Positions 36,438 to 63,359 of a stretch of DNA of 64,000 nucleotides are shown here, piece by piece (positions within the stretch are counted from its first letter, which is position 1; every line of letters begins with the position of its first letter). Position numbers and translations under genes: made by a program. The stretch is from Mesostigma viride (Eukaryota; Streptophyta; Mesostigmatophyceae; Mesostigmatales; Mesostigmataceae), in the NCBI GenBank assembly GCA_009746045.1, contig RPFO01000084.1:1356176-1420175 (forward strand). The letters run 5' to 3'. A model generated the notes under the pieces. It did no database searches and was not told the DNA's origin. It saw nothing but the letters and a program-made list of their open reading frames with translations.

Positions 36438-36441
36438 CCAG

Positions 36442-36687: not shown

Positions 36688-36994
36688 GACAGTCTTCCCT
36701 TGAGGAAGGGGTCCAGTGCTGTTGATGGCACTGCCAGACCCCCTCGAAAGAGGAGCAAGCTGCGGGCCGCACTCCTCGGGGCTGCATGCGTCAGCGGGGC
36801 GTCCGCGTTGCTGCCCGAAGCCAGAATTGTAGCCGTGGCTGGAGCCTCACCAACTGGCTCCATACTCGCGCCGGTATCCGCAACTAACGGTGCCTGTACG
36901 GCGGAGCTACTGCTATCTACACTATTTACTCCTACTACGCTATCTACCCTATCTACCTGAGCTACCGCTACTTCTACCCCCAAGGGGAGGGACA

Positions 36995-38491
36995 CTACGC
37001 GCGAGGAACGGATGGCCGGGAGTCCGCCTCGTTCGACCGCCCGGTCCGCTCTTCCCCCTCCTCCGCCGGTTCCTCCTCATCGTCGTCGCCATACGCATAG
37101 CCTGGGATGGCCTGGGCATCCAGCCGCCCACTGTCCGAGTCGTGATCGGCCGCGCCTCGTTGCTGCGCTAGCACCTTGTTCACCTCGCGGGTCACCCGTT
37201 GGAAGGATGGACCTGAGGCCCGAGGCGTTTGATACTGCGCGGGCTGGCGGCGGGCATCCTGCAGCTTGGCTGCACGTGCTCCCGCATTACGGGGCTGATC
37301 GCCGCGCTGCGCAGGGTCCGGACGTTTGCCGAAGGCGGGGCCAGAGAACTGGGGTACATGCGTCTCCTCATCCTTGCGGGCGCGCAGGCGAGGGCACTCG
37401 CGCTTGAGGTGGCCAACCTCCCCGCACGCAAAGCAGCGGGACGTGGCCGGATCGATCGCATTGACCTGGAAATCAGGGTCATAATCGCTCTCCGCTGGCA
37501 GCTCGTAGCCATACGCCGGCGTCCTCCTGTGCGACCTCAGGGTCCGCGGTGGTGAAGTGGACGCGCCGGGGTGCCGCAAGCGGGAAGCGCCGTGTAGATG
37601 CTGCACGGCGGCGGGCGATCACATCCGAGACTTGTAGCAGGTACTGCTGAATTTTTATCACATCCCACTCCTCCCATGGGACCTCGGCATAGTGCTTGAG
37701 CACCTCATCCAAGAGGTCCGGGTGCAGCGCCTCGATGAACCGTGCCTTGTACTCGGTCCAGGTCATGTCGTCAAGCCGGGCAGTGTACGCCTCAAACTCG
37801 GTGAGGAATTCGCGTGCTGCCCTGACGGAACTTGCCAAAGGCCAGGCGCTCATGGAGCTTGTAGTCCGGTGGCACCAACTTGCGCCGGATGCGGGCCATC
37901 AGCTCCTCGACCGTGCGCGGGTAGGTGCGTGACGCGACGCTCTCACAGTGGAGGATGCCGACAACGGACGGATCCATGCACATGGCTACTAGATAGGGAA
38001 TTAGCACATCAGTGGCCAACTCCCAATCGTGATGCTCGCACCATGCCCAATAGACCGCCAACACCATGCGTTCTCACTCATCGATCTCGCGCGGGGTCAT
38101 GTCCGCGCGCAACTTGGGCACGGTTTTGAAATCGGGCATGGGCGGAGCCTTGACCGTGGCCGCCCGCGGGCCTCCTTTAGCGCAAAAGGGCGGACGGTTA
38201 AAGGACGCCGGCAGCGATGGGGGCCCAGCAGCCCGCGGCTGGCTGCGCGAGGTCTCAGCTCCTCGCCGCAACCAAACGGATGTCGGGTGTTCGTAACCGG
38301 GATCGTTGAGGTCTAACCGGCTCGATCAGATTCAGGTTGGGGCCATGCGCCATGCTAGGACGCGCGGGGCCCGTCGCTGGGAGGGACTGACCCAGGCGCG
38401 TCTCAGGGCGCTCCTCGGCATCCTCATCGTAGCGGGGGGGAAGTTCGACCTCCCCCTCCTCCGTCGACCAAATTTCGCCGCGCGTAACCAT
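36995..38491 (-). pseudogene. gag: Ty3 Gag (capsid and zinc knuckle)
   Basis: Frames on the minus strand in series: EIWSTEEGEVELPPRYDEDA (start), MPDFKTVPKLRADMTPREID, then AVYWAWCEHHDWELATDVL and VEELMARIRRKLVPPDYKL, then FLTEFEAYTARLDDMTWTEY and FIEALHPDLLDEVLKHY. The last frame ends with CFACGEVGHLKREC, a CCHC knuckle (about 37391-37432). The order and the EFxxYxxxLDDMTW...FIxALHPDL pattern fit Ty3 capsids. Three or more frame changes are present. Confidence 0.7.
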
Positions 38492-42411: not shown

Positions 42412-43028
42412 AGTTAACGTAAAGGATTTACGTTAGATGGATAGAGATTGTTACGCTCTTTCCAGCGGCACCTTGAACGCCTCATTTGGTTAAGGAACGT
42501 AAAAGTTATGACGTTTCCTAGGCTGTGCCGACAGTACCCGGCGCGCCACTGTGGGCGCGTACGGACACAGGATGTACAAGTGTCACTTTGATAGTCCGCA
42601 GGACGTTGACAGGACTTGTACAGGACTTGATGGTCAATTGATAGGTAGGCGTGCTGTAGCGCGCCAGGACCTATGAGACAATTGATGCTGAGTAGTGTAC
42701 GGATAGGTCCACAGGACTAGCCGTATGGACAATTGATAGATCTCCGCGCCAAAGGCGTGCCAGAGCTCTGTGTAATCAATTGATTGACAGTTCAGCTGTG
42801 ACAGTGCAGCTGAATACTTGGACGCGTCCCTAACAACCTATATGTGTGACTTGGTCGCACCGGGACGCTAGTTCTTGCGTGCACGTTCTCTTGGCACTGC
42901 GACCCTGTCGTCTGTGCTGCGTGCAGTCTTGGAAGTGACGTGACTTACGTCTGTGTTTCCTGTTATTAATAAAGGCAACTTCCTGCAAGAACCATGGCGG
43001 AATTCGTGGCATTCACTCTCATACAACT
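42412..43028 (+). repeat. E2 5' LTR
   Basis: 617 bp. It begins AGTTAACGTAAAGG, with a short palindrome TAACGTAAAGGATTTACGTTA split across its first 25 bases, and ends CATACAACT. Immediately inside is CGTATTACACGC, not TGG. Confidence 0.9.
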
Positions 43029-43052
43029 CGTATTACACGCTTCGTTCCAAAT

Positions 43053-43763
43053 ATGCCAAATTCTGAAGAATTCCGGATTCCCGACGATGAGGAATTAGCC
43101 GCTCCGCCGGCTGATCCTTTGCCAAGAGCGGCTGCGCCGTCGTGGCAGCAATTGCTTGACGAGGTCACGACATCGCTGGACGAACTTCATCGTCAGCAGC
43201 GCGCAGCTCACGCATTGCTCGGGGATAACCCCGAGGACCCCGATTTGCCAGCACTGGTGCCGGCTATACGCGCACTGTTGGACCAGATCCGCAACATTTT
43301 ATCGACTTTTACGGTCCAGGTGCGGGGAGGATTGCGGTCGGTGAACGAGGTCACGACTGCCATTGAGGAGGTGGACAACGCCATCTCTTCACTCACCGGT
43401 TACCAGAGAAACTTACAAAACTGGGCATCGCTACGCACGGGGGGCGCGCCGGCGGTGTCGACAAACTTGTTTCAAGATCTTGCGTTGCTATCGCTGCTCA
43501 CACGCGGCGTACGCAGTCGCGAGCGCCAGGTTCTAATTAACCTGGTGGCATTTCTCGCATCTGTGCGAGAGTGGATTCCCGCGGGGTGGGAATTGTTGAC
43601 GATCTTTACACATCCTCTGCGCCTCGTAGCGCGTCGGCGCATCGCAACTTACGCGGCGGGGAGCACACCGGTTTTAATACATACCGGTGCAGGTCCAGAG
43701 CTGGATATGGAGGATCGTGAGTTCGCATACACGTACTGCGACTTCAGGGGCCTTGACTATTAA
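43053..43763 (+). CDS. E2 extra 5' ORF (ORF0) of unknown function
   Basis: 236 codons starting 25 bp after the LTR. N-terminal part: MPNSEEFRIPDDEELAAPPA. Helix-rich middle with heptad character: LLDEVTTSLDELHRQQRA and VNEVTTAIEEVDNAISSLTG. Hydrophobic segment: LALLSLLTRGV and VLINLVAFLASVREWIPAGW. The end reads YTYCDFRGLDY, conserved in E3. E3 keeps the whole frame apart from the inserted LTR element. I recognise no domain. It could be a coiled-coil, membrane-associated or RNA-binding accessory protein. Copia elements normally begin with gag here. Confidence 0.75.
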   Translation: MPNSEEFRIPDDEELAAPPADPLPRAAAPSWQQLLDEVTTSLDELHRQQRAAHALLGDNPEDPDLPALVPAIRALLDQIRNILSTFTVQVRGGLRSVNEVTTAIEEVDNAISSLTGYQRNLQNWASLRTGGAPAVSTNLFQDLALLSLLTRGVRSRERQVLINLVAFLASVREWIPAGWELLTIFTHPLRLVARRRIATYAAGSTPVLIHTGAGPELDMEDREFAYTYCDFRGLDY

Positions 43764-43774
43764 GTCGGCTAATT

Positions 43775-43789
43775 TTCTTTTCCAGTACT
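43775..43789 (+). promoter_or_regulatory. Splice-acceptor-like site between ORF0 and gag
   Basis: CTAAT followed by TTTCTTTTCCAG and TACTCGTCG lies just after the ORF0 stop. E3 has a T-run, CCAG and TACTCGTCGG at the equivalent place (near 59080-59095, minus). A spliced leader that skips ORF0 would let gag be translated efficiently. The donor was not identified. Confidence 0.35.
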
Positions 43790-43924
43790 CGTCGACATTT
43801 TTGTCGAATTTTCAACGGCGATTCGCGGGGGGGGCGACACCGGCGCAGGCGGCAGTGCGACAATTTTTGTACATACTTTTTCTGCTGCTTTGCTGAGGTG
43901 TTTTTGAATAGCTTGTAGTGCAGA

Positions 43925-45040
43925 ATGGCAGACGGGCGCCGTAGCAAAGGTGCCCCAGCCAGTGGGAATAATGGTGGTGCTGGTAGTGGGACCGCTCACG
44001 TAGATGACGTGGGGGTTACCGGAGAGATTACCAACCTTCATCACAATAATAATAATGCACAAGCTGTTCTTGGTTATGATCTCACTACCCAGGGTTTGCT
44101 TATTGTGAATCAACTGCAACCTGTCACGTCAGACACAAAGCCCAAGCAGGCTGAGGAGTTTGTGGAGGGGCTAGAGGGGTTTCCAAGTTTGTACGGTGGT
44201 ACAAACTATTACCAGATCTGGATAGGTAGCCAGACTTTTGGCAAGTGTACAGATCAGATAAAGGACCTCACTAGAGAGTGTAAGAAGGCCAACAAGGCCT
44301 GGTCCAGCTACGTGGCAGAGTTAAAGGAGCTGCTGGAGGATCAGAGGAAGAAAGTGGGGATCCATTGGCAGGATAAATACCAGGGGTGGGAGGTCAAGGG
44401 GGACCTGATCCAGAACTTCCTTAACTATTGTAAAATGGTTGAGGAGGGCAGGGCTCACGGCTTTAATGTTGCTGATAACATAGCCCTGACCAACTGGCTC
44501 AAGGTTTCTGGGCTGGATAAGGCGACACGTGGCTCCTTAAAGGTCATGTGTGCCCCACACTCAACCCTCAAGGCCTACAAGGTCATAATCAAACAAGCAC
44601 TCGAGGCAGAGGAGCTGTTTGAGGGTGGAGTGCCAGCAGTGAAGGCTACCCAGGCAGGTGGGCGTACCCAGGGGGCTCCAAGACGTCTGAGGCTGACAGA
44701 AGCCAAGGAGGGCGAGGGGCAACCATAACAAGCGCAAGGGCGATCATTCACCTGACTCTGACAGGAGGTCACACTCCAAGTCGGTGTTCAGGCGGGTGGG
44801 TGGTCAGCCCAAGCAGGGCAACGCGTCTGACAACGGGGGAGTGGCCAGGGCAAGTCAAAGATACAATGCTACCTGTGCAAGGGGTGGGGGCACATCAAGA
44901 AGGAGTGTCCCAGCTTCAAGAAGTCCCAGGGCCAGGGCAGCAACAAGAATAACAACAACAACAACAAGAAGAACAACAACAAGTCCCAGGCAGGCCAGCC
45001 TTCAAAGGGCAGTCAGCAAGAAGACAACAAGGAGCAGTGA
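43925..45040 (+). CDS. gag: E2 Gag, ending at a UGA that separates it from Pol
   Basis: It starts MADGRRSKGAPASGNNGG. The capsid region includes FVEGLEGFPSLYGGTNYYQI, VAELKELLEDQRKKVGIHW and LTNWLKVSGLDKATRGSLKV. After losses of single Gs in G-runs near 44675 and 44715 (E3 has the longer runs) and a further shift near 44840, the knuckle CYLCKGWGHIKKEC and an Asn/Lys-rich tail follow. The frame ends EDNKEQ then TGA (45038-45040), next codon CTG. Downstream codons stay open in the same frame into Pol. Gag forms the particle shell and packages RNA. Confidence 0.8.
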
Positions 45041-48000
45041 CTGTCTGAGGCAACCCCTACACACCTTAATTCACCCAAGGGGGAGGCCAGGTGCTCCAAT
45101 GCAGATTTTATATCTGGGCAACAAGAGGGTGATCTCCAGGTTCAGGGTGGCCCCAGGTCACCTGGAGAGGTACAGGTTCCTATGAAGACGTCCTTGACAG
45201 CTGATGCAGCTGTAAGAATGTCTGACCCATGCATCCTCGTGCTGGGCACGAGGGTGGACCTCTCATTTTGAGAGAAACCAATGTACAACCACAGAGGGGT
45301 GTGAAGGCCTCTGGTGGTATGCATGTGGTCCCTGCTGGCGGTCCAGGTGTTGGGCATGAGCAGGGTGACTCAGGCTCTGAGTCAGAACAGGATGGAAGTC
45401 AGCATGGTGATGCTGGACAACCTGACAGCACAGTCCTGACTGTGCCAGGGACTGCTTCCTCTGTGTACCAGGAGTTGGGTGCCCGAATCCACAACATGTT
45501 TGGGCATGCCACTTCTCTGTCAAACAACTTTGCCTTCCGTATGGGCAGGGCACCCCTTCTTAAGGCGTGTCAGCAAGCTGCCTCACGGTGTAAGTGCCAG
45601 TTGTCCTCCAACAAGCCCAGGAAATCACATGCCAAAGCTCTACCTCAGAGCATTGGTGATCTGCAGTGTGATATCCAACACATCAGGGGCATGCAACTGT
45701 TGGTGTGCGTGGACAGGTACACGAAATACAAGGTGCTAGAGCATTTACCTTCTATGAAGAACAGGTACTTGCTGGCTGCCCTGCAGAATGTAAGAGCCAA
45801 GTTTCCTACCACAAGGATCCAGGTGGACATGCAGTTTCAGCATCTCAAGGGTGATCCTACCCTTCCTGAGTTGCTGGTTACACCTAGGGAGGCTCATGGG
45901 CAGCAGGGTGCTATCGAGAGGGCAATCCAGGAGGTCAAGAAATTGATCATCTCTGAAGACTGGGTACCCTTGTCTGCACCTGCACTTGTCAGGAGTGCAT
46001 GGCTGAGGAACGTGGAGCAGCAGCTGAACAGCAGGGTTAACTTCTACTATGATGGAGTTGCTGTCAGCCCAATGGGTCTATATCATGGCCTGTGCCCACC
46101 ACATGTGCTGGAGGGCTGGAAACATGCTGCACATGTCACCTTTGCCAAGCTGAGGGAGAAGGACCGGGGTTGGAAGATGCTGGAGCCACAAGTGGGTCAG
46201 AAGGTCCTAGCTTGGAAGGAACCTAGCCTTTATGGCAAACGTGGTAGCTGGAGTCCTGGGGTGGTTACCCAGGTTGATGAAGCTAGCCACGCATGCTTGG
46301 TCAGCATGGAGGACGAACCAAAGCATGTGCACCGGCTGAGTTGGTCATATGTCAAGCCTAACCTGATGAATGAGGGCAGTCAGGCACAAGGCTCACAGGA
46401 TCTGCAGGATTTTCAGGTCCCAGGTGACATCACTGACGCAACGACCACATCTGTTGCAGGGGAATCTGTCAGCCCTGGCCAGGTTGCAGAGGTACTTGTT
46501 GAACAGGCTGCAAGGTCAACAGCTGGGGAGTCAACTGTCAAGCCCAAGGCACTAACCAAGCCCAGGGGGACAAGTTTGGCTGGATTGATTGGGGCTCTAC
46601 AAAGAGCCAAGAAGCAGCCCAAGGTAGCCAAGCTCAGGTGGCATGGCAATCTGGGGCTGGACACTGCCTTAGAGGTAGACACTAATTCTCAGGTCTCCAT
46701 CATTGGGACCAGGGCTGCAGCAGGGTACAGCATGTCTGAACCCAGCTATCAGTTTGTGTCTGACTTCAGTGGCGGGGTACACGTGAAGGTACTGGGTGAG
46801 GTATTCATTCCTATCCTTGGACAGGACACTGCTTTTTGTGTCTTGGAGGGCTATCAAGGACCTGCTCTTCTGGGGCAGAATTTCCTATGCCAGGATGGGG
46901 TAGTGATCACGTCCTCTCTCCTGACTAAGGAAGGGGCTGGTCAGGTCCCACTGATTAATTTCAGGACCACTCACCTATCACGTGCAGTAACCAGGACGGT
47001 TAAGCGTGTGCAAGTGTGCCAGGGGCAGGAGCCCTTGGTTGATGACCTCATACTGCCAGCTGCTAGTCATCCAAGCAGTTTGGGCATTGGTCCTCACTCA
47101 CTTGCTGGACACAGCCCTATCAACTACCAAGGCCTGGTGAAGCTCATGTCCTCTCCCATTATGTGTCCCCAGGTCACACTGGGTCTGATTAAATCTGGGG
47201 AGGACTGGATCTCCAAGAAATGCGTGGAACCTGTCAATGACCTGCCTCCTGCACGACGTCTACTCAAGCTCAAGTTTGTCATCAAGATGAAGGAGGTGGA
47301 CGGGGTCAAGGTACCACATGTCAGGCCAGTGCTGAATGAGTTCAAGGGTACTGGTGAGTGCACTGCTGAGGAGTTGTATACCCCTGGCATGTTGCATGAT
47401 ACTTGGAGGCTGCTGCTGTGTGTATTTCTAGGCCTTCTCAACAAGGGCTTGGACTATGGCTCAGTGGTGGTAGACTTCAAGAGGGCATTTCTGGAGGGGA
47501 TGCAGATGTGGCACAGGAAAAGTGGGAGGGCAAGACGCCTTTCTATGTTAGGGTGCCTGCTGTATGGAAAAGGGACATCCACACGGAGTTCCTTAAAATC
47601 CTCAAGGGCCTGGAGGGCCTGAGGTCAAGTCCAATAATCTGGAGGGAGACTCTCAACCGTTTCCTGAAGGAGCATTGCAACTTGAAGGTCTCTCCTGTAG
47701 ACCCCTGTCTGTTTCTGGGGCAATGGGAAGGCCTGCCAGTGTATGCTTCGCTGCACGGGGATGACCTACATCTGATAGCTCCCACGTCGTGGCTTAAGGA
47801 GCTGATCTCCATCATTAAGTCCAAGTTTCCTCTGGGTAGGGAGCAATGGCAGGTGGAGAATGAGCCTCTGCTGTTTGTGGGCATGGAGGCCACACTGGTG
47901 AAGAAGGGGGGGAGTGGCGTATGCTGCTGGTGGGGGGCAATGATTATCAAGAGACCCTCATTAGCAAGCTTCCTCCAACCATCACACAGGCACTGTGTCC

Positions 48001-48664
48001 CATGGTGAGGGGCATGGTTGCTTGGGTGGCAGGCATTTCCAGGCCAGACCTTATGGTCATAGCCAGGTTGCCTGATGACATGCTGGTGGAGCTAGGGTCT
48101 GCCAAGGTGGCTGATCAGGTCAGGGCTTCATCTGGCATTCTGTTGTCTGCAGTGGATTTATCACAACCCATTTGCATGGAGCTGTATGTGGATAGCTCAA
48201 TGGACAGCAGGCAGGTCTCCAAGGTCAGGGGCAGGGCTGCAGGGCTCTTTGTGCTCAGACAGGAAGGCCTGGGGAGTTTGGTGAGCTGGTTTAGTCGCCT
48301 GCACAAACGGGTGGCTGTCAGCAGTGATGTGGCAGAATGCAGGGCTATTTGTGAAGGCATTCACACAAGCCTTTATCTGAAGGAGTTGCTTCATCAGATG
48401 ACTTCTAACACTCCTTGGCCACTTCAGGTTACCACTCTTCTAAAAACAGACTCCATGGGGATGGTGCAGTTTGTGCACAGGCAGATGGCCAGAAGTAGGG
48501 ACTTGGATTATCTCCTTCTTAAGGAGTTGTCCTCCTTGGCCAATATTGAGCATATCCCTGGGGTTGACAATCCTGCTGATGCTTTGACCAAGCTAGTGCA
48601 GAAGGCAGCAGTGCAATACAAGGTTCTTCAGTCTCTGATGGACCCATCTCAGCAAGCTGTCTAA
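45041..48664 (+). CDS. pol: E2 Pol: integrase, protease-like domain, RT, RNase H
   Basis: Numbered from 45229. Integrase zinc residues are H88, H93, C121 and C123 (CxC, not CxxC). Core acidic residues are D148 (QCDIQHIRG), D200 (QVDMQF) and E230 (GQQGAIERAIQ). A retropepsin-like domain starts D484 (EVDTNSQVSII) and ends near L547 (ALLGQNFL). RT has VVVDFKRAFLEG (motif A, about 47470) and LHGDDLHLI (47754-47765). RNase H has ELYVDSSMDSRQ, AECRAICEG, LKTDSMGMVQF and VDNPADALTKL, with stop at 48664. Single-base shifts near 45222, 47500 and 47905 are absent or different in E3. PR between IN and RT is opposite to the known copia order. Confidence 0.85.
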
Positions 48665-48948
48665 GCTGGTGCATGGTTATAGGGCATTGGAGAGCAGATT
48701 GTGTGGTAGTGTCAGCATTGTGACTGGCATAATACCTGTATTTTAGTCTGTACTAAGGCTCATGGACCATGGTACACTCACTCTGATTTTAATCAGGATA
48801 CAGCCAGGTTTTGGCTGGGGTTCATGCTGTTGACTACACAAGGTTGACAGGTCCATTACAGACCATGTATTCTATTTTAAAAGAAATGTATATTTGTACA
48901 TACTCTCACAATGGTCTGGGAACCTTTATTCTGGGGTTTATAGGGCGG

Positions 48949-48959
48949 GGTTCGATTCC
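48949..48959 (+). promoter_or_regulatory. tRNA T-arm / B-box-like motif upstream of the E2 3' LTR
   Basis: GGTTCGATTCC within GGGGTTCGATTCCC fits the Pol III B-box consensus and can form a short T-arm-like hairpin. Equivalent motifs occur in E3 (51943-51953, minus) and in diverged E1 (25591-25601, minus, GGGGTTCAATTCCCC). No complete tRNA surrounds it. Confidence 0.5.
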
Positions 48960-49613
48960 CTGGTATTATGTTTCTACAAGCTGGCCTGTTCAGGTGTTTG
49001 CCTGTTCAGACTTCCCTAGTTCCCCAGGGCAGGATTTAATTGTTGCCTATGTGTTTCATTTTGTCATTTGTTTGCTGTGGCAGTTTACCATCTGGCAAGT
49101 AGACGGGCGCCGTAAGACGGGCGCCAATAGACCCCTGTTGAGAGAATGACAGGCAAACTATTGTAATACGCCTTACTTTGTCAAGTGGTATTTTAATTGT
49201 CATGGATTTATTGTACTTATATTGAATATGTACTGGGTTTTATGGGATTAGTATCTGGGATTAATGTAACTCACCGCCAGAAGGTCATTGTACTGGAGGC
49301 TCTACCGAGGTGATGGGATTAATTCCTGGAGAAGACCTCATAGAATTAACCTGTATGTATTTAATTTTGTGTGCTTCTAATATCTGGTGGTACTCTGTAA
49401 TGCCACTTCCATAGGTTTTTATCCATTTCTCATGGAATGGTTTTCCCTGTGGCAGATCTGTTTCTTTTCCAGTTCCTTAAAAGAAAGGGCTGGGGGAATG
49501 GCAATGGCCATTAAAGACATCTGTTCAAGCTTCAAGCTGGAGTGAAGGACATTTCAAGCTACTTCAAGGGTCCCTGGCAGGGGATGTGATCCCTAAAGAA
49601 AAGAAGGGATTGG

Positions 49614-50227
49614 AGTTAACGTAAAGGATTTACGTTAGATGGATAGAGATTGTTACGCTCTTTCCAACGGCACCTTGAACGCCTCATTTGGTTAAGGAAC
49701 GTAAAAGTTATGACGTTTCCTAGGCTGTGCCGACAGTACCCGGCGCGCCACTGTGGGCGCGTACGGACACAGGATGTACAAGTGTCACTTTGATAGTCCG
49801 CAGGACGTTGACAGGACTTGTACAGGACTTGATGGTCAATTGATAGGTAGGCGCTGTAGCGCGCCAGGACCTATGAGACAATTGATGCTGACTAGTGTAC
49901 GGATAGGTCCACAGGACTAGCCGTATGGACAATTGATAGATCTGCGCGCCAAAGGCGTGCCAGAGTCTGTGTAATCAATTGATTGACAGTTCAGCTGTGA
50001 CAGTGCAGCTGAATACTTGGACGCGTCCCTAACAACCTATATGTGTGACTTGGTCGCACCGGGACGCTAGTTCTTGCGTGCACGTTCTCTTGGCACTGCG
50101 ACCCTGTCGTCTGTGCTGCGTGCAGTCTTGGAAGTGACGTGACTTACGTCTGTGTTTCCTGTTATTAATAAAGGCAACTTCCTGCAAGAACCATGGCGGA
50201 ATTCGTGGCATTCACTCTCATACAACT
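49614..50227 (+). repeat. E2 3' LTR
   Basis: 614 bp. It is preceded by the polypurine tract ending GGGATTGG and followed by TSD CCCGC. It differs from the 5' LTR by a few substitutions and one- to two-base indels. Confidence 0.9.
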
Positions 50228-50660
50228 CCCGCGAGATCCGCATCGACTTCTGCAAGATCCGCTCTGCTGGGCTCAGCGTCCGTACCATCCTACTCTCATC
50301 ATTCAAAATTGCTCCCCAAGAGGGGGGTAGTAAGTTCAGCACATCCACTTGGCCACCTTCCCCCGGACCAGGCAAGGCCAAGCGTGCGGCCACTAACGGT
50401 TCGTAAGGGGCTCCTTCAGCATATTCACCCCCATCCACTACAGATCCTGCCATTGCCGCTACGGAACCACCGTTCCGGCGGACAAAGGACCTGCAAGCAT
50501 CATCGATCCCATCTAGGGCCGCCTGCTGCAGAGGCCCGGGCACACGGGCTGAATCTACAGCAGGCGGGTCTCGCCCCCCCCCCCATCCAGTTTAACGCCC
50601 TAACCGTCTGACAGGCTAGTGTGCGAGCATTAAAAGCCCGACTCATCCTATCGCGCCTAC
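50228..50660 (-). pseudogene. Older RT element, segment 2 (between gag-like and RT core)
   Basis: Minus frames MSRAFNARTLACQTVRALNW and LQQAALDGIDDACRSFVRRN, then QVDVLNLLPPSWGAILNDES and LSPAERILQKSMRISRE, lead into segment 3 after E2 is removed. VDLLNLLPP...I..D..R...L is a pattern I associate with the N-terminal part of algal/protist retroelement RTs (inference). It lies between the E2 and E3 target duplications (CCCGC; CCTAC). Confidence 0.55.
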
Positions 50661-51279
50661 AGTTGTGAGAGAGAAATGCCGAAGTTCGCCATGGCTCTTG
50701 CAGGAATGTTGCCTTTATTAGAATAAGGGAAACACAGACGTAAGTCACGTCACTTCCAAGACTGCACGCAGCACAGGCAACAGGGTCGCAGTGCCAAGAG
50801 AACGTGCACGCAAGAGCTAGCGTCCTAGAGCTACCAAGGCACACATATAGGTTGCTAGGGACGCGTCCAAGTATTCAGCTGCACTGTCACAGCTGAACTG
50901 TCAATCAATTGATCACACAGACTCTGGCACGCCTTTGGCGCGCAGATCTATCAATTGTCCATACGGCTAGTCCTAGCTGTGGACCTATCCGTACATTACT
51001 CAGCATCAATTGTCTCATAGGTCCTGGCGCGCTACAGCACGCCTACCTATCAATTGACTATCAAGTCCTGTACAAGTCCTGTCAACGTCCTGCGGACTAT
51101 CAAAGTGACACTTGTACATCCTGTGTCCGTACGCGCCCACAGTGGCGCGCCGGGTGCTGTCGGCACAGCCTAGGAAACGTCATAACTTTTACGTCCCTTA
51201 CCCAAATGAGGCGTTCAAGGTGCCGTTGGAAAGAGCGTAACAATCTCTATCCATCTAACGTAAATTCTTTACGTTAACT
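50661..51279 (-). repeat. E3 3' LTR
   Basis: 619 bp, ends AGTTGTGAG on the plus strand (CTCACAACT in element sense) and GTTAACT. The internal neighbour (plus strand CCAATCCCTTCTTTTC) is the reverse complement of the polypurine tract. Confidence 0.9.
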
Positions 51280-52009
51280 CCAATCCCTTCTTTTCTTTAG
51301 GGATCACATCCCCTGCCAGGGACCCTTGAAGTAGCTTGAAATGTCTTTCACTCCATGCAGCTTGAAGCTTGAACAGATGTCTTTAATTAATGGCCAATGC
51401 CATTCCCCCAGCCCTTTCTTTTAAGGAACTAGAAAAGAAACAGATCTGCCACAGGGAAAACCATTCCATGAGAAATGGAGAAAAACCTATGGAAGTGGCA
51501 TTACAGAGTACCACCAGATATTAGAAACACACAAAATTAAATACATACAGGTTATATTCTATGAGGTCTTCTCCAGGAATTAATCCCATCACCTCGGTAG
51601 AGCCTCCAGTACAATGACCTTCTGGCGGTGAGTTACATTAATCCCAGATACTAATCCCATAAAACCCAGTACATATTCAATATAAGTACAATAAATCCAT
51701 GACAATTAATATACCACTTGACAAAGTAAGGCGTATTACAATAGTTTGCCTGTCATTCTCTCAACAGGGGTCTATTGGCAACCGTCTTACGGCGCCCGTC
51801 TACTTGCCAGATGGTAAACTGCCACAGCAAACAAATGACAAAATGAAACACATAGGCAGCAATTAAATCCTGCCCTGGGAAACTAGGGAAGTCTGAACAG
51901 GCAAACACCTGAACAGGCCAGCTTGTAGAAACATAATACCAGGGAATCGAACCCCGCCCTATAAACCCCAGTATGAAGGTTCCCAGACCATTGTGAGAAG
52001 TATGTACAA

Positions 52010-53972
52010 TCGGGGTTCTTTGAACGGAGTTTCTTCTATACGTGAATGCGGGAACAAGAGGCCGCTGGATGAGCGGCTTATAGGTCGCAGTGTTTACTCG
52101 TAGCTGTTTGGCTAGAGCTTTTGTGATTAGTAGATGCAATATAGTGCATGGTTGAAAAATGAATTAAATAAAATGTGCGTTCCGCGCTTGGGTTGATTAT
52201 ACCCGGGCGGAACGGGGCGTGAGGTGCAGTGCCCCTGAAAAGAACAACCTACGCATTATTTAATACTAGCCGTGCAGATTCGGGATATTCTACCCCCGGT
52301 CTGTACGGTTAGCGTCTTACTAGCATCCACTAAACATAAGGGTTTAATGACGTCAGTTAGCTAGGGATAAGGGAGGTTTTGCGACTAAAAGCCGCTCTGG
52401 CTGGTTTTGTCGGCCTCTTTCTTTGCTCGTTGTCGTTGCGGCGGCAGCCGCAGCTATGGGTGCTGCGGAGCAAAATCCCAAAAGCACTGGTTGCACTGGC
52501 CACTTGGCCAGTGGTGAGACTTCCAGTTGTTAACCGGCCAGGCGTAGTTCCTCGCCCGGTTAACTAAAAGAAAAGAAAAAGATTACCTCCGGTCCGCACC
52601 TTTTCCCCAGCTTGGGGTCTTTGGTGGGCCGGATGCCGTGACAGGTGCTCAACTGTCGCTTGGTCGGCCCAGTGCGCGAGCTGGTGCTCCGTACCTGGGG
52701 ATGCTTGCACCCCGGGTTGGAGCCGGATGGCTGGCACTGGCGACCCGTGTCTCGGTCCGCGGCCTGCGGCTTTTTCTTCGGAAATTGCTGCTGGCCAGCA
52801 AACTTTGCAATTGCCTTCCGCCGAGGGGGGGGTGGTTGGGGCTGGGGACGGCGATGGGAAAAGCGTCTAAGCTAGAAATTTTTTCCCCACGCATAGAAAC
52901 CTCGGGGGGGAATGCGGTCTTGGCTGAACGGACTCTCGTTCAGCCAGGTGCCTGGGGCTGTGGCCTCGGGCATCCGGGCTGGCGGGGCCTGGGCTAGGTC
53001 CACGTTTTTTCTCGAAGCACCCCGGGTCTATGGGGAGACGGCCATAGCGGTACCGACTCGGGGCCCCGAGAGGGGTCATGATAGGCTGGCCGTGCGCAAT
53101 CGCAGTGCAAATGCGCTGGGCCTTTTTGGGCCTGGCCATGCATCCACAGCCGCCGGGCACACGCCTCCCGATGTGGGGGGCTCCCGTTTTGCGGCAGGGC
53201 GGTCACTTGTGACAACAAGCAAGGTGGAGTGCGGCTTCAAGGGAAAGCCAGGGCGGGGGTGATTGGGCAACGTACTTCATGAAGGGCCTTGAACGGCGTG
53301 CCTCCGGGCATGTCAATTAGTGTCACATGTATGCTTCCACTTATTGTTTTAATGAAGATGCTGGTTTTTGTGGGAGCTACGTGGGACATGAATCGGGGTT
53401 CTTTGAACGGAGTTTCTTCTATACGTGAATGCGGGAACAAGAGGCCGCTGGATGAGCGGCTTATAGGTCGCAGTGTTTACTCGTAGCTGTTTGGCTAGAG
53501 CTTTTGTGATTAGTAGATGCAATATAGTGCATGGTTGAAAAATGAATTAAATAAAATGTGCGTTCCGCGCTTGGGTTGATTATACCCGGGCGGAACGGGG
53601 CGTGAGGTGCAGTGCCCCTGAAAAGAACAACCTACGCATTATTTAATACTAGCCGTGCAGATTCGGGATATTCTACCCCCGGTCTGTACGGTTAGCGTCT
53701 TACTAGCATCCACTAAACATAAGGGTTTAATGACGTCAGTTAGCTAGGGATAAGGGAGGTTTTGCGACTAAAAGCCGCTCTGGCTGGTTTTGTCGGCCTC
53801 TTTCTTTGCTCCCCCCCCACCCACCCTTGTCTTGGTTGCCTCTAGGGCAACGTACTTCATGAAGGGCCTTGAACGGCGTGCCTCCGGGCATGTCAATTAG
53901 TGTCACATGTATGCTTCCACTTATTGTTTTAATGAAGATGCTGGTTTTTGTGGGAGCTACGTGGGACATGAA
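52010..53972. mobile_element. Head-to-tail dimer of an unclassified non-coding element
   Basis: Unit 1 (52010-53392) is B(419)-V(836)-A(128). Unit 2 (53393-53972) is the same B(419) and A(128) with only 33 bp between them. B starts TCGGGGTTCTTTGAACGG and A ends GTGGGACATGAA. Comparison with E2 shows the insertion point GTACAA/ATATAC with no target duplication (at most an ambiguous AA). B includes GCGTTCCGCGCTTGG and GGGCGGAACGGGG, which can pair. V contains GTTAACCGGCCAGG and CGCCCGGTTAAC, another hairpin. No reading frame of interest. Rolling-circle or circular-intermediate integration would fit tandem units without duplication. Confidence 0.6.
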
Positions 53973-54202
53973 ATATACATTTCTTTTAAAATAGAATACA
54001 TGGTCTGTAATGGACCTGTCAACCTTGTGTAGTCAACAGCATGAACCCCAGCCAAAACCTGGCTGTATCCTGATTATGATCAGAGTGAGTGTACCATGGT
54101 CCATGAGCCTTAGTACAGACTAAAATACAGGTATTATGCCAGTTACAATGCTGACACTACCACACAATCTGCTTCTCCAATGCCCTATAACCAGGCACCA
54201 GC

Positions 54203-57200
54203 TTAGACAGCTTGCTGAGATGGGTCCATCAGATACTGAAGAACCTTGTACTGCACTGCTGCCTTCTGCACTAGCTTGGTCAAAGCATCAGCAGGATTGT
54301 CAACCCCAGGGATATGCTCAATATTGGCCAAGGAGGACAATTCCTTAAGAAGGAGATAATCCAAGTCCCTACTTCTGGCCATCTGCCTGTGCACAAACTG
54401 CACCATCCCCATGGAGTCTGTTTTTAGAAGAGTGGTAACCTGAAGTGGCCAAGGAGTGTTAGAAGTCATCTGATGAAGCAACTCCTTCAGATAAAGGCTT
54501 GTGTGAATGCCTTCACAAATAGCCCTGCATTCTGCCACATCACTGCTGACAGCCACCCGTTTGTGCAGGCGACTAAACCAGCTCACCAAACTCCCCAGGC
54601 CTTCCTGTCTGAGCACAAAGAGCCCTGCAGCCCTGCCCCTGACCTTGGAGACCTGCCTGCTGTCCATTGAGCTATCCACATACAGCTCCATGCAAATGGG
54701 TTGTGATAAATCCACTGCAGACAACAGAATGCCAGATGAAGCCCTGACCTGATCAGCCACCTTGGCAGACCCTAGCTCCATCAGCATGTCATCAGGCAAC
54801 CTGGCTATGACCATAAGGTCTGGCCTGGAAATGCCTGCCACCCAAGCAACCATGCCCCTCACCATGGGACACAGTGCCTGTGTGATGACTGGAGGAAGCT
54901 TGCTAATGAGGGTCTCTTGATAATCATTGCCCCCCACCAGCAGCATACGCCACTCCCCCCTTCTTCACCAGTGTGGCCTCCATGCCCACAAACAGCAGAG
55001 GCTCATTCTCCACCTGCCATTGCTCCCTACCCAGAGGAAACTTGGACTTAATGATGGAGATCAGCTCCTTAAGCCACGACGTGGGAGCATCAGATGTAGG
55101 TCATCCCCGTGCAGCGAAGCATACACTGGTAGGCCTTCCCATTGCCCCAGAAACAGACAGGGGTCTACAGGAGAAACCTTCAAGTTGCAATGCTCCTTCA
55201 GGAAACGGTTGAGAGTCTCCCTCCAGATTATTGGACTTGACCTCAGGCCCTCCAGGCCCTTGAGGATTTTAAGGAACTCAGTGTGAATGTCCCTTTTCCA
55301 TACAGCAGGCACCCTGACATAGAAAGGCGTCTTGCCCTCCCACTTTTCCTGTGCCACATCTGCATCCCCCTCCAGAAATGCCCTCTTGAAGTCTACCACC
55401 ACTGAGCCATAGTCCAAGCCCTTGTTGAGAAGGCCTAGAAATACACACAGCAGCAGCCTCCAAGTGTCATGCAGCATGCCAGGGGTATACAACTCCTCAG
55501 CAGTGCACTCACCAGTACCCTTGAACTCATTCAGCACTGGCCTGACATGTGTGGTACCTTGACCCCGTCCACCTCCTTCATCTTGATGACAAACTTGAGC
55601 TTGAGTAGACGTCGTGCAGGAGGCAGGTCATTGACAGGTTCCACGCATTTCTTGGAGATCCAGTCCTCCCCAGATTTAATCAGACCCAGTGTGACCTGGG
55701 GACACATAATGGGAGAGGACATGAGCTTCACCAGGCCTTGGTAGTTGATAGGGCTGTGTCCAGCAAGTGAGTGAGGACCAATGCCCAAACTGCTTGGATG
55801 ACTAGCAGCTGGCAATATGAGGTCATCAACCAAGGGCTCCTGCCCCTGGCACACTTGCACACGCTTAACCGTCCTGGTTACTGCACGTGATAGGTGAGTG
55901 GTCCTGAAATTAATCAGTGGGACCTGACCAGCCCCTTCCTTAGTCAGGAGAGAGGACGTGATCACTACCCCATCCTGGCATAGGAAATTCTGCCCCAGAA
56001 GAGCAGGTCCCTGATAGCCCTCCAAGACACAAAAAGCAGTGTCCTGTCCAAGGATAGGAATAGATACCTCACCCAGTACCTTCACGTGTACCCCGCCACT
56101 GAAGTCAGACACAAACTGATAGCTGGGTTCAGTCATGCTGTACCCTGCTGCAGCTCTGGTCCCAATGATGGAAACCTGAGAATTAGTGTCTACCTCTAAG
56201 GCAGTGTCCAGCCCCAGATTGCCATGCCACCTGAGCTTGGCTACCTTGGGCTGCTTCTTGGCCCTTTGCAGAGCCCCAATCAATCCAGCCAAACTTGTCC
56301 CCCTGGGCTTGGTTAGAGCCTTGGGCTTGACAGTTGACTCCCCAGCTGTTGACCTTGCAGCCTGTTCAACAAGTACCTCTGCAACCTGGCCAGGGCTGAC
56401 AGATTCCCCTGCAACAGATGTGGTCGTTGCGTCAGTGATGTCACTTGGGACCTGAAAATCCTGCAGATCCTGTGAGCCTTGTGCCTGACTGCCCTCATTC
56501 ATCAGGTTAGGCTTGACATATGACCAACTCAGCCGGTGTACATGCTTTGGTTCGTCCTCCATGCTGACCAAGCATGCGTGGCTAGCTTCATCAACCTGGG
56601 TAACCACCCCAGGACTCCAGCTACCACGTTTGCCATAAAGGCTAGGTTCCTTCCAAGCTAGGACCTTCTGACCCACTTGTGGCTCCAGCATCTTCCAACC
56701 CCGGTCCTTCTCCCTCAGCTTGGCAAAGGTGACATGTGCAGCATGTTTCCAGCCCTCCAGCACATGTGGTGGGCACAGGCCATGATATAGACCCATTGGG
56801 CTGACAGCAACTCCATCATAGTAGAAGTTAACCCTGCTGTTCAGCTGCTGCTCCACGTTCCTCAGCCATGCACTCCTGACAAGTGCAGGTGCAGACAAGG
56901 GTACCCAGTCTTCAGAGATGATCAATTTCTTGACCTCCTGGATTGCCCTCTCTATAGCACCCTGCTGCCCATGAGCCTCCCTAGGTGTAACCAGCAACTC
57001 AGGAAGGGTGGGATCACCCTTGAGATGCTGAAACTGCATGTCCACCTGGATCCTTGTGGTAGGAAACTTGGCTCTTACATTCTGCAGGGCAGCCAGCAAG
57101 TACCTGTTCTTCATAGAAGGTAAATGCTCTAGCACCTTGTACTTTGTGTACCTGTCCACGCACACCAACAGTTGCATGCCCCTGATGTGTTGGATATCAC

Positions 57201-57827
57201 ACTGCAGATCACCAATGCTCTGAGGTAGAGCTTTGGCATGTGATTTCCTGGGCTTGTTGGAGGACAACTGGCACTTACACCGTGAGGCAGCTTGCTGACA
57301 CGCCTTGAGAAGGGGTGCCCTGCCCATACGGAAGGCAAAGTTGTTTGACAGAGAAGTGGCATGCCCAAACATGTTGTGGATTCGGGCACCCAACTCCTGG
57401 TACACAGAGGAAGCAGTCCCTGGCACAGTCAGGACTGTGCTGTCAGGTTGTCCAGCATCACCATGCTGACTTCCATCCTGTTCTGACTCAGAGCCTGAGT
57501 CACCCTGCTCATGCCCAACACCTGGACCGCCAGCAGGGACCACATGCATACCACCAGAGGCCTTCACACCCCTCTGTGGTTGTACATTGGTTTCTCTCAA
57601 AATGAGAGGTCCACCCTCGTGCCCAGCACGAGGATGCATGGGGTCAGACATTCTTACAGCTGCACCAGCTGTCAAGGACGTCTTCATAGGAACCTGTACC
57701 TCTCCAGGTGACCTGGGGCCACCTGAACCTGGAGATCACCCTCTTGTTGCCCAGATATAAAATCTGCATTGGAGCACCTGGCCTCCCCCTTGGGTGAATT
57801 AAGGTGTGTAGGGGTTGCCTCAGACAG
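54203..57827 (-). CDS. pol: E3 Pol
   Basis: Minus frame 57827-55531 carries integrase and the protease-like domain (VDTNSQVSIIGT at about 56200, ALLGQNFL at about 56000) and the start of RT to KVPHM. After a one-base shift the frame 55537-55061 carries VVVDFKRAFLEGDADVAQ and ASLHGDDLHL. The 54946-54203 frame carries RNase H (LYVDSSMDSRQV; KTDSMGMVQF). The residues are almost identical to E2. The Gag UGA is TCA at 57828-57830 on the plus strand. E3 lacks the base loss that E2 has near 45222. Confidence 0.85.
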
Positions 57828-58935
57828 TCACTGCTCCTTGTTGTCTTCTTGCTGACTGCCCTTTGAAGGCTGGCCTGCCTGGGACTTGTTCTTGTTGTTT
57901 TTGTTGTTGTTATTCTTGTTGCTGCCCTGGCCCTGGGTCTTCTTGAAGCTGGGACACTCCTTCTTGATGTGCCCCCACCCCTTGCACAGGTAGCACTGGA
58001 TCTTTGACTTGCCCTGGCACCACCCCCGTTGTCAGACGCGTTACCCTGCTTGGGCTTGCCACCCACCCTCCTGAACACCGACTTGGCATGTGATTGCCCG
58101 TCAGGGTCGGGTGAATGGTTGGCCTTCCGCTTGTTGTGGTTGCCCCCACGCCCTCCTTGGCTTCTGTCAGCCTCAGACGATTTGGAGCCCCCCTGGGCAC
58201 GCCCACCTGCATGGGTTGCCTTCACAGCTGGCACCCCACCCTCAAACAGCTCCTCTGCCTCGAGTGCTTGCTTGATGATGACCTTGTAGGCCTTCATGGT
58301 GGAGTGAGGAGCACACATGACCTTGAGAGATCCACGTGTGGCCTTGTCCAGCCCAGAGACCTTCAACCAGTTGGTCAGGGCTATGTTGTCTGCCACGTTG
58401 AAACCGTGGGCCCTGCCTTCCTCAACCATTTTGCAATAGGAAATTCTGGATGAGGTCTCCCTTGACCTCCCACCCTTGATACTTGTCCTGCCAATGGATC
58501 CCCACTTTCTTCCGTTGATCCTCTAGCAGCGTCCCTCAGCTCTGCCACGTAGACTGCCCAGGCCTTGTTGGCCTTCTTGCACTCTCTATAGTGAGGTCTT
58601 TAATCTGATCTGTGCATTTGCCAAAAGTCTGGCTGCCTATCCAGATCTGATAATAGTTAGTACCCCCGTACAAACTTGGAAACCCCTCTAGTCCTTCCAC
58701 AAACTCCTCTGCCTGCTTTGGCTTAGAGTCTGAAGTGACAGGTTGCAGCTGATTAACTATAAGGAGACCCTGGGTGGTGAGATCATATATATCCAGAGAC
58801 AGCATGTGTATTATTATTGATAGGCACATTGGTAATCTCGCCAGTAACCCCCACGTCATCTACGTGAGCGGTCCCACTACCTGCACCTCCATTATTACCA
58901 CTGGTTGGGCCCTTACTACGTCGCCCATCAGCCAT
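57828..58935 (-). CDS. gag: E3 Gag
   Basis: ATG at 58935-58933 (MADGRRSKG-type start; the next codons are diverged). The parts match E2: EFVEGLEGFPSLYGGTNYYQ, TNWLKVSGLDKATRG, GGSKSSEADRSQGGRGGNHN, then the knuckle CYLCKGWGHIKKEC after the shared shift and a tail ending EDNKEQ-UGA. Frame breaks occur near 58840-58790, 58590 and 58435. Confidence 0.75.
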
Positions 58936-59107
58936 GGTTGACTACAATGCTGTTACAATGCACAGGAGCTAAGCAGCAAAACAAAATCCTGACAGCAAAA
59001 TATCCTGCCAACAAATCTGTCAAGTAATGCCGCCTGCACCGGTGTCGATGCCGCCGCGAAATGCCGCCGAAAGGCCGACGAGTACTGGAAAAAAAAATGT
59101 CCGACGT

Positions 59108-62100
59108 TTAGTAGTCGAGACCACGGAAGTCGCAGTACTCGTACGTGTATTCTGCGTCCTCCATATGTAAGGCGTAAGAGCCGGACCTGCGACGGCGTGA
59201 ATTAACACAGGCGTGTTCGCCTGGTTTTGCGTCGGCAGAAAAACTGCGATGCGCCGACGGGAAACGATGCGCAGAGGATGCGTGAAAATGGATAAGAGTT
59301 CCCAGCCAGCTGCGATCCACTCACGCAGTGCAGAAAGGAACGCCACCAGGTTAATGAGAACCTGGCGTTCTCGCGTGCGAACGCCGCGCGTGAGCAGCAA
59401 CAGCAACGCGATATCTTGGAATAAATTTGTCGAGACTGCGGGCGCGCCTCCCGTGCGCGTCGCAGCCCAGTTTTGCAGATTCCGCTGGTAACCGGTGAGA
59501 GACGAGATGGCGTTGTCCACCTCCTCGATGGCGGTTGTGACTTCGTTAATGGAACGAAGCCCTCCACGGACCTGGACTGTAAAGGCCGATAAAATCGACC
59601 GAATGGAGTGTCAAGAATCCTGTCTTGAATATGCCCATTATGCTGACCGTGCAGAAATCTATAATACGGGCAATTGTATTCGAGCCCTAATTAACAAATA
59701 GATATATGCTCGGATAGTAGTACCTAAGTGGGATTTGTCCTACGTGAATGGACACTATGACTATGTGCCAAGTTGTACAATGGCACTAGGACCATTGGTC
59801 ACTATCTTCACCAGATTATAGTATTGTGTCATGTGCATGTCATACCATGCCGTACCGAGTCATGCATGCGCATGCACCATGTTCCAACATACCAGCTGTC
59901 GTTATCGACCCATTGTCGGCCCATGCCCATACCAGGGCCGCCGCCACCACTCACCTACCATAATTACCAATGTTCACGCTACCTTGAGGGAGCCATGGAA
60001 AGCCACACCATATGGACGTAATAAATAATTTTCCTGGCTCCTGACGCTTAAGTTGGCAATGATTCACCACCTACAAATTATTCATTTAAGTCCCCATAAT
60101 AATCACACATGCCTTTAACATGGCATCGGAGGTCCGGGGCAAGATCTTTCAACGGAATTAACCAACCTCTAAGCGGCAGCTCACATTTTATTGAGCGCCT
60201 TGATCATAGTTTATATTTTCATATACGGAGCAGCTTGGTCGAATTCTTGTACTTGATACGACCATGATTATGGCGCAGATGCTACCGTGAAATTCAAGGC
60301 TTTCAATCGACTTACTTCAATGTGTGGTAACACCAAATATTCGGGGTGACACCTACCGTCGCTAAAATCCGTCAAGAATTTCCCAAGCTCCGGTGCGCAG
60401 GCCAGATCTACGCTTTTATACTTATATATGCCCGAAACTGATCAAACGCCAACATTTCGGTGATGGGGACGTCGGCACTCAAGCCTGGCACTCAAAAGGT
60501 GCCGGCTCTGGTTCCAGGCAGCGCCAGTGATTTTTTACCTGGCAGCACATTTTTTGGCCGAGTGCAGTGCGTTCAATCGGCGCGGGGTCACTGACGGGCT
60601 CCCACTGAGCCGCGCGAGCTGTGAGCATCGACGAGAAATCGGCGGAGCTGTTTACCTCAAGAATTTTTCATGAGAACCGGTCTTTCTTTTGTACCGGCAC
60701 CATTTCGCGTGGCATCAACATTCTTTTGGGCGCATTCTTTTAAACCGGAATTCTTTTTTAACGGTCATCACTTCAAGAGCCCAGAGCCTGCCATGCTCCA
60801 AGTTTCCAAGAAAAAAGGGAACATTCCCTGGGTCCTGCTCTCAAGGCCAGCCTGCTGACACAGCTGCACACCACACTAAGGAGGGTGCTCACTAACTCCC
60901 CACGTTGTTTTCAGCACTAGTTGCAGTTTTATAATTCAGTCACATTTAACTAGTTGCAGGCACCACTAGCAGCAGTAACAGCTAGTTGCACTATCACGTG
61001 CCAGCACTAGACACCCACTAGCAACCAGTTGCCCCATACTGTAATGTAGGCAGCAGTAACAGCACAGTCCCATCAGCACCATCACACTGGCATCAACAAG
61101 CACAGCAGGCAACACCAGCAGGAACAGAGTACACTGCATAGTCCATGCAGGCAGCTACCCACACTTGCCTAGCCAGCAAGGAGAAGTAGTAGCACCCAGC
61201 AGCACATGCATGACTCTCCACCACAGGCGTAGAGTAGATAGTAGCTGCAGTCAGCTGCACGCACTTGTCTAGCTAGCAAGTAGCAGTCCAGCAACCAGCT
61301 CTACATCCTCACGTCACAGTTCACCTTGTAGTAGTTGCAGTAAGTTGCACCAAACCCTGTTGGCAAACAAGTCAAAGTAGCACTACCAGCACCACACAAG
61401 ACACTGTACCCACACACAGCATAGATCGTGTGTGCACACACAACAGCTGACGTCACCGGTTTACCAGCAGCTACCAGTACCCAACGTTTCCAGCTGCAAC
61501 CCTGGCATCAACCAGTACCGGCTACAGTCTGCATCCAGACTCAACACTGAGCAACCAGTCCTTACAGTTTAAGAGCCTGTTTCCAGTTTGGCTCCACCCT
61601 CGTGTGGCGCACTCCATGTGACAATATGGGGCTACACAACCTTGCCCTCATTTTTCTTGCTGTTTTATATCAAGACCAGGGTGTCGTGTAAGGAGGGAAT
61701 CCACTTAGGTACCCGACTACCCTCGCCCAGGATCTAGCATTTGTATTTATAGACAGCATCATGTGCAAGGAGGGTGTCAAGAATCCTGTCTTGAATATGC
61801 CCATTATGCTGACCGTGCAGAAATCTATAATACGGGCAATTGTATTCGAGCCCTAATTAACAAATAGATATGCTCGGATAGTAGTACCTAAGTGGGATTT
61901 GTCCTACGTGAATGGACACTATGACTATGTGCCAAGTTGTACAATGGCACTAGGACCATTGGTCACTATCTTCACCAGATTATAGTATTGTGTCATGTGC
62001 ATGTCATACCATGCCGTACCGAGTCATGCATGCGCATGCACCATGTTCCAACATACCAGCTGTCGTTATCGACCCATTGTCGGCCCATGCCCATACCAGG

Positions 62101-62540
62101 GCCGCCGCCACCACTCACCTACCATAATTACCAATGTTCACGCTACCTTGAGGGAGCCATGGAAAGCCACACCATATGGATGTAATAAATAATTTTCCTG
62201 GCTCCTGACGCTTAAGTTGGCAATGATTCACCACCTACAAATTATTCATTTAAGTCCCCATAATAATCACACATGCCTTTAACATGGAGTCCAACGGACC
62301 GCGAATTGCCGGCACCAGCTGCGGCAGGCGCGGGTCTTCCGGGAAATCCCCCAGGAACGGCAGAGCTGCCCGCTGTCGACGATGTAATTCGTCGAGCGAT
62401 GTAGTGACCTCGTCAATTAGACTTTGCCACGGCGCAGCAATCGGCTGCGGATCGCGCGATGGCGGAACCGGTAAGGGGTCGGCCGGCGGAGCAGTTATTT
62501 CCTCCTCAGTGGGAATCCGGAAATCGAAGGAATTCGGCAT
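59108..62540 (-). pseudogene. E3 extra 5' ORF (ORF0), split by an LTR element
   Basis: The frame starts at 62540 (MPNSFDFRIPTEEEITAPPA) and runs to the insertion at 62285. It resumes at 59608 with SAFTVQVRGGLRSINEVTT and ends YTYEYCDFRGLDY at 59108. Removing the insert and one TGGAG copy restores the frame exactly. It keeps the E2 ORF0 sequence with many conservative changes, for example LDELHRRQRAALPFLGDFPE, which suggests protein-level selection before insertion. Confidence 0.75.
59609..62284 (+). mobile_element. Non-autonomous (non-coding) LTR retrotransposon nested in E3
   Basis: Direct repeats 59609-60120 (512 bp) and 61775-62284 (510 bp) are nearly identical and start TG (TGTCAAGAATCC), ending CA (CCTTTAACA). 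TSD TGGAG is at 59604-59608 and 62285-62289. Directly after the first LTR is TGGCATCGGAGGTCCGGGG, which resembles an initiator-Met tRNA primer site (TGGTATCAGAGC is the usual plant form, from memory). Before the second LTR is the purine tract GCAAGGAGGG. The 1.65-kb interior has no gag or pol, only CAGTAGCA-type short repeats. It must use proteins of another element, probably Ty3-type or a conventional copia type. Confidence 0.9.
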
Positions 62541-62564
62541 GAGTGAGATTCGGCGAGTAATACG

Positions 62565-63359
62565 AGTTGTGAGAGAGAAATGCCGAAGTTTGCCATGGCT
62601 CTTGCAGGAATGTTGCCTTTTTTAGAATAAGGGAAACACAGACGTAAGTCACGTCACTTCCAAGACTGCACGCAGCACAGGCGACAGGGTCGCAGTGCCA
62701 AGAGAACGTGCACGCAAGAGCTAGCGTCCTAGAGCTACCAAGTCACACATATAGCTTGCTAGGGACGCGTCCAAGTATTCAGCTGTACTGTCACAGCTGA
62801 ACTGTCAATCAATTGATCACACAGACTCTGGCACGCCTTTGGCGCGCAGATCTATCAATTGTCCATACGGCTAGTCCTAGCTGTGGACCTATCCGTACAT
62901 TACTCAGCATCAATTGTCTCATGTAGCTTGCTAGGGACGCGTCCAAGTATTCAGCTGTACTGTCACAGCTGAACTGTCAATCGATTGATCACACAGACTC
63001 TGGCACGCCTTTGGCGCGCAGATCTATCAATTGTCCATACGGCTAGTCCTGTGGACCTATCCGTACATTACTCAGCATCAATTGTCTCATAGGTCCTGGC
63101 GCGCTACAGCACGCCTACCTATCAATGGACTATCAAGTCCTGTACAAGTCCTGTCAACGTCCTGCGGACTATCAAAGTGACACTTGTACATTCCTGTGTC
63201 CACGTACGCGCCCACAGTGGCGCGCCGGGTACTGTCGGCACAGCCTACTAGGAAACGTCATAACTTTTACGTCCCTTACCCAAATGAGGCGTTCAAGGTG
63301 CCGTTGGAAAGAGGGTAACAATCTCTATCCATCTAACGTAAATCCTTTACGTTATAACT
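62565..63359 (-). repeat. E3 5' LTR with internal tandem duplication
   Basis: 795 bp. TAGCTTGCTAGGGACGCGTCC starts at about 62752 and again at about 62925. The duplicated block covers the region up to CGGCTAGTCCT. The outer end has AGTTATAACG instead of AGTTAACG (two extra bases). Confidence 0.85.

Follow-up and report, generated by a model that had tools for sequence, protein, structure and literature searches.

Long terminal repeat (LTR) retrotransposons are assigned to superfamilies by the order of their domains. For Ty1/copia, the ICTV profile and the REXdb survey (PMC6317226) give as ordinary features two LTRs, a target-site duplication (TSD), a polypurine tract, an RVT_2-type reverse transcriptase (RT), integrase (IN) upstream of RT and a protease (PR) ahead of integrase. 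At least one reference survey discards elements that break the domain order (PMC6317226). Here we describe elements of Mesostigma viride in which a retropepsin-like domain lies between integrase and a copia-type RT. Three of them (E1, E2 and E3) are complete insertions, each with two LTRs and a perfect 5-bp TSD, in a 64,000-nucleotide stretch of contig RPFO01000084.1 (positions 1,356,176 to 1,420,175, forward strand), hereafter the window. All six reading frames of the whole window were inspected, and repeats were sought in its right part. An initial annotation of positions 42412-63359, which are exactly E2 plus E3 and leave E1 outside, had suggested an undescribed clade with permuted Pol.

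Permuted domain order in intact copies

Pol of E1, E2 and E3 runs integrase, retropepsin-like domain, copia-type RT and RNase H (RH). The retropepsin-like stretch that the initial annotation placed between integrase and RT of E2 was recovered as EVDTNSQVSII from residue 483 (D485 = nt 46678) and ALLGQNFL from residue 547 (nt 46864), with FKRAF and HGDD downstream. Its motifs were right, while its residue numbers (D148, D200, E230 and D484) were each one too low, the residues being D149, D201, E231 and D485. The diverged E1 carries, as had also been claimed, matching motifs at the same place: MEVDTNSQVSVI from nt 28091 and AILGQNFL from nt 27899 (minus strand). The reading frames of all three elements are broken; other copies in the same genome are unbroken.

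The order IN-PR-RT recurs in the ENA protein P0001, the EukProt protein P0002 and, within the same genome, one uninterrupted Pol frame from each of five subfamilies. These genomic frames came from six stretches of ~10 kb, five of them picked for long frames, and span 1194-1320 codons, with integrase starting at 54-147, PR at 512-639 and RT-RH at 678-809; the frame of the sixth stretch, L085, stops after PR. The permuted order is real and is repeated across intact subfamilies, in support of the earlier suggestion of a permuted clade. Near-identical LTR pairs were seen in two of these subfamilies (L081 and L082).

A genome search with a 117-residue query that takes in the E2 domain returned 4,576 candidates, and the best 150, which were scored, were all 100% identical and stop-free (the ranking favors such candidates), 59 of them inside a 1208-codon open frame. 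Among the best 150 of 4,149 candidates from a search with the P0011 domain, 36 were 100% identical over the whole query, 25 of those in a 1233-codon frame, and lower-ranked rows added subfamilies whose frames span 1194, 1196 and 1320 codons. Twenty short PR stretches that were fetched comprised at least seven types by eye. A 739-codon frame at L084:292-2508 (+), next to the element read there, shows a D-T-N/Q-type motif (position 64) and an H-x-D-D box (position 436) and is probably a piece of another member of the family.

Database proteins of the family labeled Mesostigma viride include P0003 (90% identity with the RT frame of E1), P0002 and P0011. Two EukProt rows labeled as the dinoflagellate Prorocentrum lima, P0005 (86% identical to E1 RT) and P0007, also carry the family, through either contamination or horizontal transfer. 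Scans of viral contigs and genome contigs found no relatives.

Identity of the domain between integrase and RT

The initial annotation saw no protease between the Gag knuckle and integrase, and our scans agree. Pfam placed no protease family in the pre-integrase pieces of P0001, E1, E2 and E3 plus the first part of E2 Gag, with neither the tail of E2 Gag nor the broken-frame segment of E1 immediately upstream of integrase used as a query of its own. The sole match in this set was DUF1302 (E 0.02, in E3). From other copies, two Gags and four pieces of the Pol N-terminus were likewise without a protease match. Ahead of integrase, D[ST]G occurred only in the E2 type, as an acidic DSGS that lies ~40 residues from the HHCC box and is missing from the P0001 and E1 pieces. 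In L083, 64 Pol residues precede the HHCC box, and the DSGT of L081 sits between integrase and PR. A PDB search with one E2 linker piece gave no protease match. On these Pfam, motif and PDB searches of the pieces scanned, an overlooked protease within Gag or the linker ahead of integrase was rejected.

PDB profile searches with the middle domain returned retropepsins only (6/6 and 7/7 matches, all weak). The best profile and structural matches were ASPRV1, Ddi1 and the HIV/FIV proteases, the 50 listed structural matches were all of one fold class, and the catalytic D was in register in the alignments seen (PDB profile matches and hhalign). A shuffle control gave 0/200. The D and T of the active site were invariant in all seven aligned members and all 20 fetched copies, with N or Q as the third residue in the seven members. 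A hydrophobic-hydrophobic-Gly element near the C-terminus is a defining element of retropepsins, and all seven members have it as [IL]-L-G-[QL]-x-F-L. A relocated retropepsin is the best explanation of the middle domain, and we hold the permuted order together with this homology to be very probable.

By sequence identity, conservation of the domain is close to that of RT. Mean identity over ten pairs of five members was ~47% for both PR and RT; E2 and P0002 shared 50% in PR, 39% in RT and 32% in integrase, and E2 and P0001 shared 48%, 68% and 48%, respectively. Between sister subfamilies, the ratio of nonsynonymous to synonymous divergence (dN/dS) over ~103 PR codons was 0.13 (dS 0.98) and 0.05 (dS 1.7, near saturation), so that, on these ratios, purifying selection acts on the domain in both informative pairs of the four.

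Several results weigh against a permuted element with a working retropepsin. The active-site triad was D-T-N or D-T-Q in 19 of the 20 fetched copies, D-T-H in one and D-T-G in none, and thus departs from the catalytic D-T/S-G triad of retropepsins (clan AA, family A2). ASPRV1 has D-S-G, visible in the profile alignment, and Ddi1 and the HIV/FIV proteases have D-S-G or D-T-G. Against known proteases the domain had no match at E≤0.001 and none above a Pfam cut-off; the E2-type PR piece matched no Pfam family, and the L082 PR piece alone had zero PDB matches. The hhalign probability to the protease of a Ty3/gypsy element in the window was 8-9%. The AlphaFold model, a check proposed earlier, was poor (pLDDT 52), and Foldseek found nothing at E≤0.001. 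A viral structure library gave 291 matches, none of the 50 listed at E≤0.001, and its top ranks mixed some protease- or RT-bearing viral proteins with unrelated ones. The two closer pairs each had 2 nonsynonymous and 0 synonymous differences, which carry little information. Pfam found zero family matches for the integrases of L081 and L082, which were assigned via P0002 (E 5e-89 and 1e-45). The weak E-values are not decisive, because the gypsy protease of the window, with its D-T-G, itself retrieved a single PDB entry, 'Exported protein', at E 0.077.

We call the domain retropepsin-like and infer its catalysis, because the D-T-N/Q triad fails the defining motif. Given the domain order and the retropepsin homology, it is somewhat more likely than not to be a working protease despite this triad. 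Loss of the protease function with retention of the fold is a less likely account, under which the domain would be a structural or dimerizing module ahead of RT, and Gag-Pol would be cut by the protease of the host or of another element or stay uncut. The replacement of the triad glycine by N or Q in the seven members and 19 copies fits such a loss, as do the weak matches to active retropepsins, but a dead domain would not need the invariant D and T, two pairs show purifying selection, and no other protease appeared in the Gag and Pol pieces scanned.

That an unrelated beta domain, for example an RT-accessory or chromatin-binding module, resembles a retropepsin by chance is improbable. No match passed curated cut-offs, the model is of low confidence and the L082 piece lacks a PDB match, but the PDB profile matches and the 50 listed structural matches are uniform in fold class, the catalytic D is in register in the alignments seen, and no shuffle reproduced the result. 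Least credible of all is an ordinary PR-IN-RT copia element that looks permuted through decay, recombination or misassembly. E1-E3 are frame-broken and E2 and E3 are mosaic, but the same order stands in separate records (ENA P0001 and EukProt P0002), and the unbroken frames refute this account for their five subfamilies. Because P0001, P0002 and the five uninterrupted frames share the order, broken copies do not explain it, and misassembly or decay as its source was ruled out by the unbroken frames.

Gag-Pol junction and features of the window

An in-frame UGA lies between Gag and Pol in four of the six subfamilies examined, and the frames overlap in the other two. The Gag UGA, with Pol in the same frame, stands in the context CAG-TGA-CTG in L086 (E2 type, with a 1208-codon Pol frame after it), CAG-TGA-CTA in L082, CAT-TGA-TAT in L084 and CAA-TGA-CGT in L085, the last two being of the same subfamily. 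E1, E2 and E3 retain the UGA after the knuckle. In L081 (3830-3866) and L083 (3956-3995), Pol lies in the -1 frame relative to Gag, with an overlap of 37-40 nt. These arrangements point to two distinct gag-pol strategies among related elements, with the UGA as a candidate site of translational readthrough and frameshifting a similar candidate. Readthrough is supported by the context match only, and the copia element Tca2 speaks against it, since flanks of its gag UGA did not direct readthrough in yeast (PMC2194720).

In the mechanism we propose, a minority of ribosomes would read through the UGA, or slip into the -1 frame, and so make Gag-Pol. Two protease-like domains would then pair in the particle and cleave Gag-Pol, with cleavage starting next to RT, as in retroviruses, whereas in known copia elements it starts from the Pol N-terminus. 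RT-RH would copy the RNA and integrase would insert the copy.

Feature coordinates are given in Table 1. The limits of the E2 integrase were transferred from a phmmer match in the same-type copy L086, with fold support from P0002, and its residue numbers were read on L006, whose frame is likewise 798 aa.

Table 1 Features of E1, E2 and E3 in window coordinates
Feature	Position	Strand	Details
E2, complete LTR retrotransposon	42412-50227	+	TSD CCCGC; LTR pair 99.0% identical
E2 5' LTR	42412-43028	+	termini AGTT...AACT
E2 extra open reading frame (ORF) between 5' LTR and gag	43054-43763	+	present also in E3; tblastn 46-53% to E3
E2 gag	43925-45037	+	frame broken in this copy; CCHC knuckle ~44867-44908
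E2 gag stop	45038-45040	+	CAG-TGA-CTG; candidate readthrough site
E2 Pol frame	45226-47622	+	798 aa
E2 integrase	45478-46353	+	HHCC box, D149, D201, E231, C-terminal domain
E2 retropepsin-like domain	46666-46917	+	D485-T-N ... ALLGQNFL; limits transferred from L086
E2 copia-type RT and RNase H	47185-48661	+	FKRAF, HGDD; frame broken; start transferred from L086
E2 3' LTR	49614-50227	+	polypurine tract just before
E3	50661-63359	-	LTRs 50661-51279 and 62565-63359; TSD GTAGG; further internal repeats
E3 Pol frame, integrase and retropepsin-like domain	55531-57735	-	EVDTNS from 56196, ALLGQNFL from 56004
E3 gag stop	57828-57830	-	CAG-TGA-CTG
E1, diverged family	24433-32866	-	LTRs 24433-25083 and 32220-32866 (98.8%); TSD ACTCA, read off flanking sequence
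E1 gag stop	29658-29660	-	CAG-TGA-CTA
E1 integrase and retropepsin-like domain	27720-29114	-	motifs from 28091 to ~27876
E1 RT and RNase H	26093-27685	-	

The LTR termini are AGTT...AACT in E1-E3 and L081 and TGTT...AACA, that is TG...CA ends, in L082. The E3 LTRs align in two pieces (95.9/98.3% identical), and one of them starts with AGTTATAACG. The 5' LTR is followed by CGTATTAC, CGTACTAT, TGTACTCA or TGTACTAG ([CT]GTA[CT]T pattern), without a TGG start; the Ty1/copia primer-binding site is complementary to a tRNA, usually initiator Met. E2 and E3 are mosaic, with pol ~99%, gag ~88-93% and the leader ORF ~79% identical, as if by template switching or recombination. Over 688 codons, the changes between them number 14 synonymous and 4 nonsynonymous. 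The E3 counterpart of the leader ORF lies at 59241-59594 plus 62288-62539 (-), and E2-E3 divergence there far exceeds that of pol. E3 holds extra repeats, some direct and some inverted, at 51556-53972 and 59608-62167, between the coding part and the LTRs; among them are duplicated blocks of 300 bp and 128 bp. The Ty3/gypsy element at 33223-37200 (-) adjoins E1 and has an ordinary D-T-G protease, RT and integrase.

Relation to known LTR elements

RVT_2 passed its cut-off in L082 only (1.9e-12, 47.8 bits, cut-off 31.6); other family pieces were below the cut-off or unmatched (L084, P0004 and P0007). hhalign aligned the family RT-RH to ordinary copia at 97.7% probability, and to the gypsy RT and two LINE-like ORFs of the window at only 0.1-0.4. 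The RT phylogeny that the initial annotation had proposed separated the family from copia: in an 11-row tree, eight family rows, several of them RT fragments in which the order is not seen, split from three copia rows at 100/100, a tree whose three outgroups do not place the family within or beside copia.

Like Ty1/copia (Pseudoviridae), the elements have an RVT_2-type RT, integrase before RT, RNase H last, a CCHC Gag, LTRs and a 5-bp TSD; the two LTRs, TSD and polypurine tract were found in E1, E2, E3, L081 and L082. They differ in that no protease was found ahead of integrase and the protease-like domain follows it, and in the RT box, which is HGDD, HADD or HVDD in E1, E2, P0001, P0002 and P0011 as opposed to YVDD in P0008-P0010. 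Searches of an open-access library, some of them aimed at the order itself and without a single hit, listed no account of IN-PR-RT elements (Repbase Reports and subscription papers lay outside this scope), and two Mesostigma genome papers mention LTR elements or retrotransposons without the word copia. The elements appear to be an undescribed variant of the Ty1/copia type with permuted Pol.

A clade of multiple subfamilies with the protease after integrase and near-identical LTR pairs means that the order is not fixed, and order-based filters hide such elements. Permuted elements allow ideas on the assembly of integrase and protease around RT to be tested. An active D-T-N/Q domain would broaden the range of accepted aspartic-protease active sites; with an inactive one, Gag-Pol of such elements must mature otherwise.

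Other known systems share single traits with the family. Gmr1, of the Ty3/gypsy lineage, has a gypsy RT and reportedly keeps its protease upstream. It is a known case of a copia-like integrase position within that lineage (PMC2774666). Tca2 of Candida albicans likewise has an in-frame UGA between gag and pol (PMC2194720). Ty3/gypsy, BEL/Pao and retroviruses, including foamy virus, resemble the family in having the protease directly ahead of RT, and the foamy PR-RT structure 7o0g ranked second in Foldseek with P0002. Integrase is last in those groups (PMC12440569) and first here, where the RT is of copia type. We tentatively entertain, at somewhat less than even odds, a separate LTR lineage deep beside Ty1/copia, with a working D-T-N/Q retropepsin and an H-x-D-D RT, in which integrase was set ahead of an old protease-RT-RNase H core and not into it. 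The place of integrase would then have been shuffled independently among LTR-element families.
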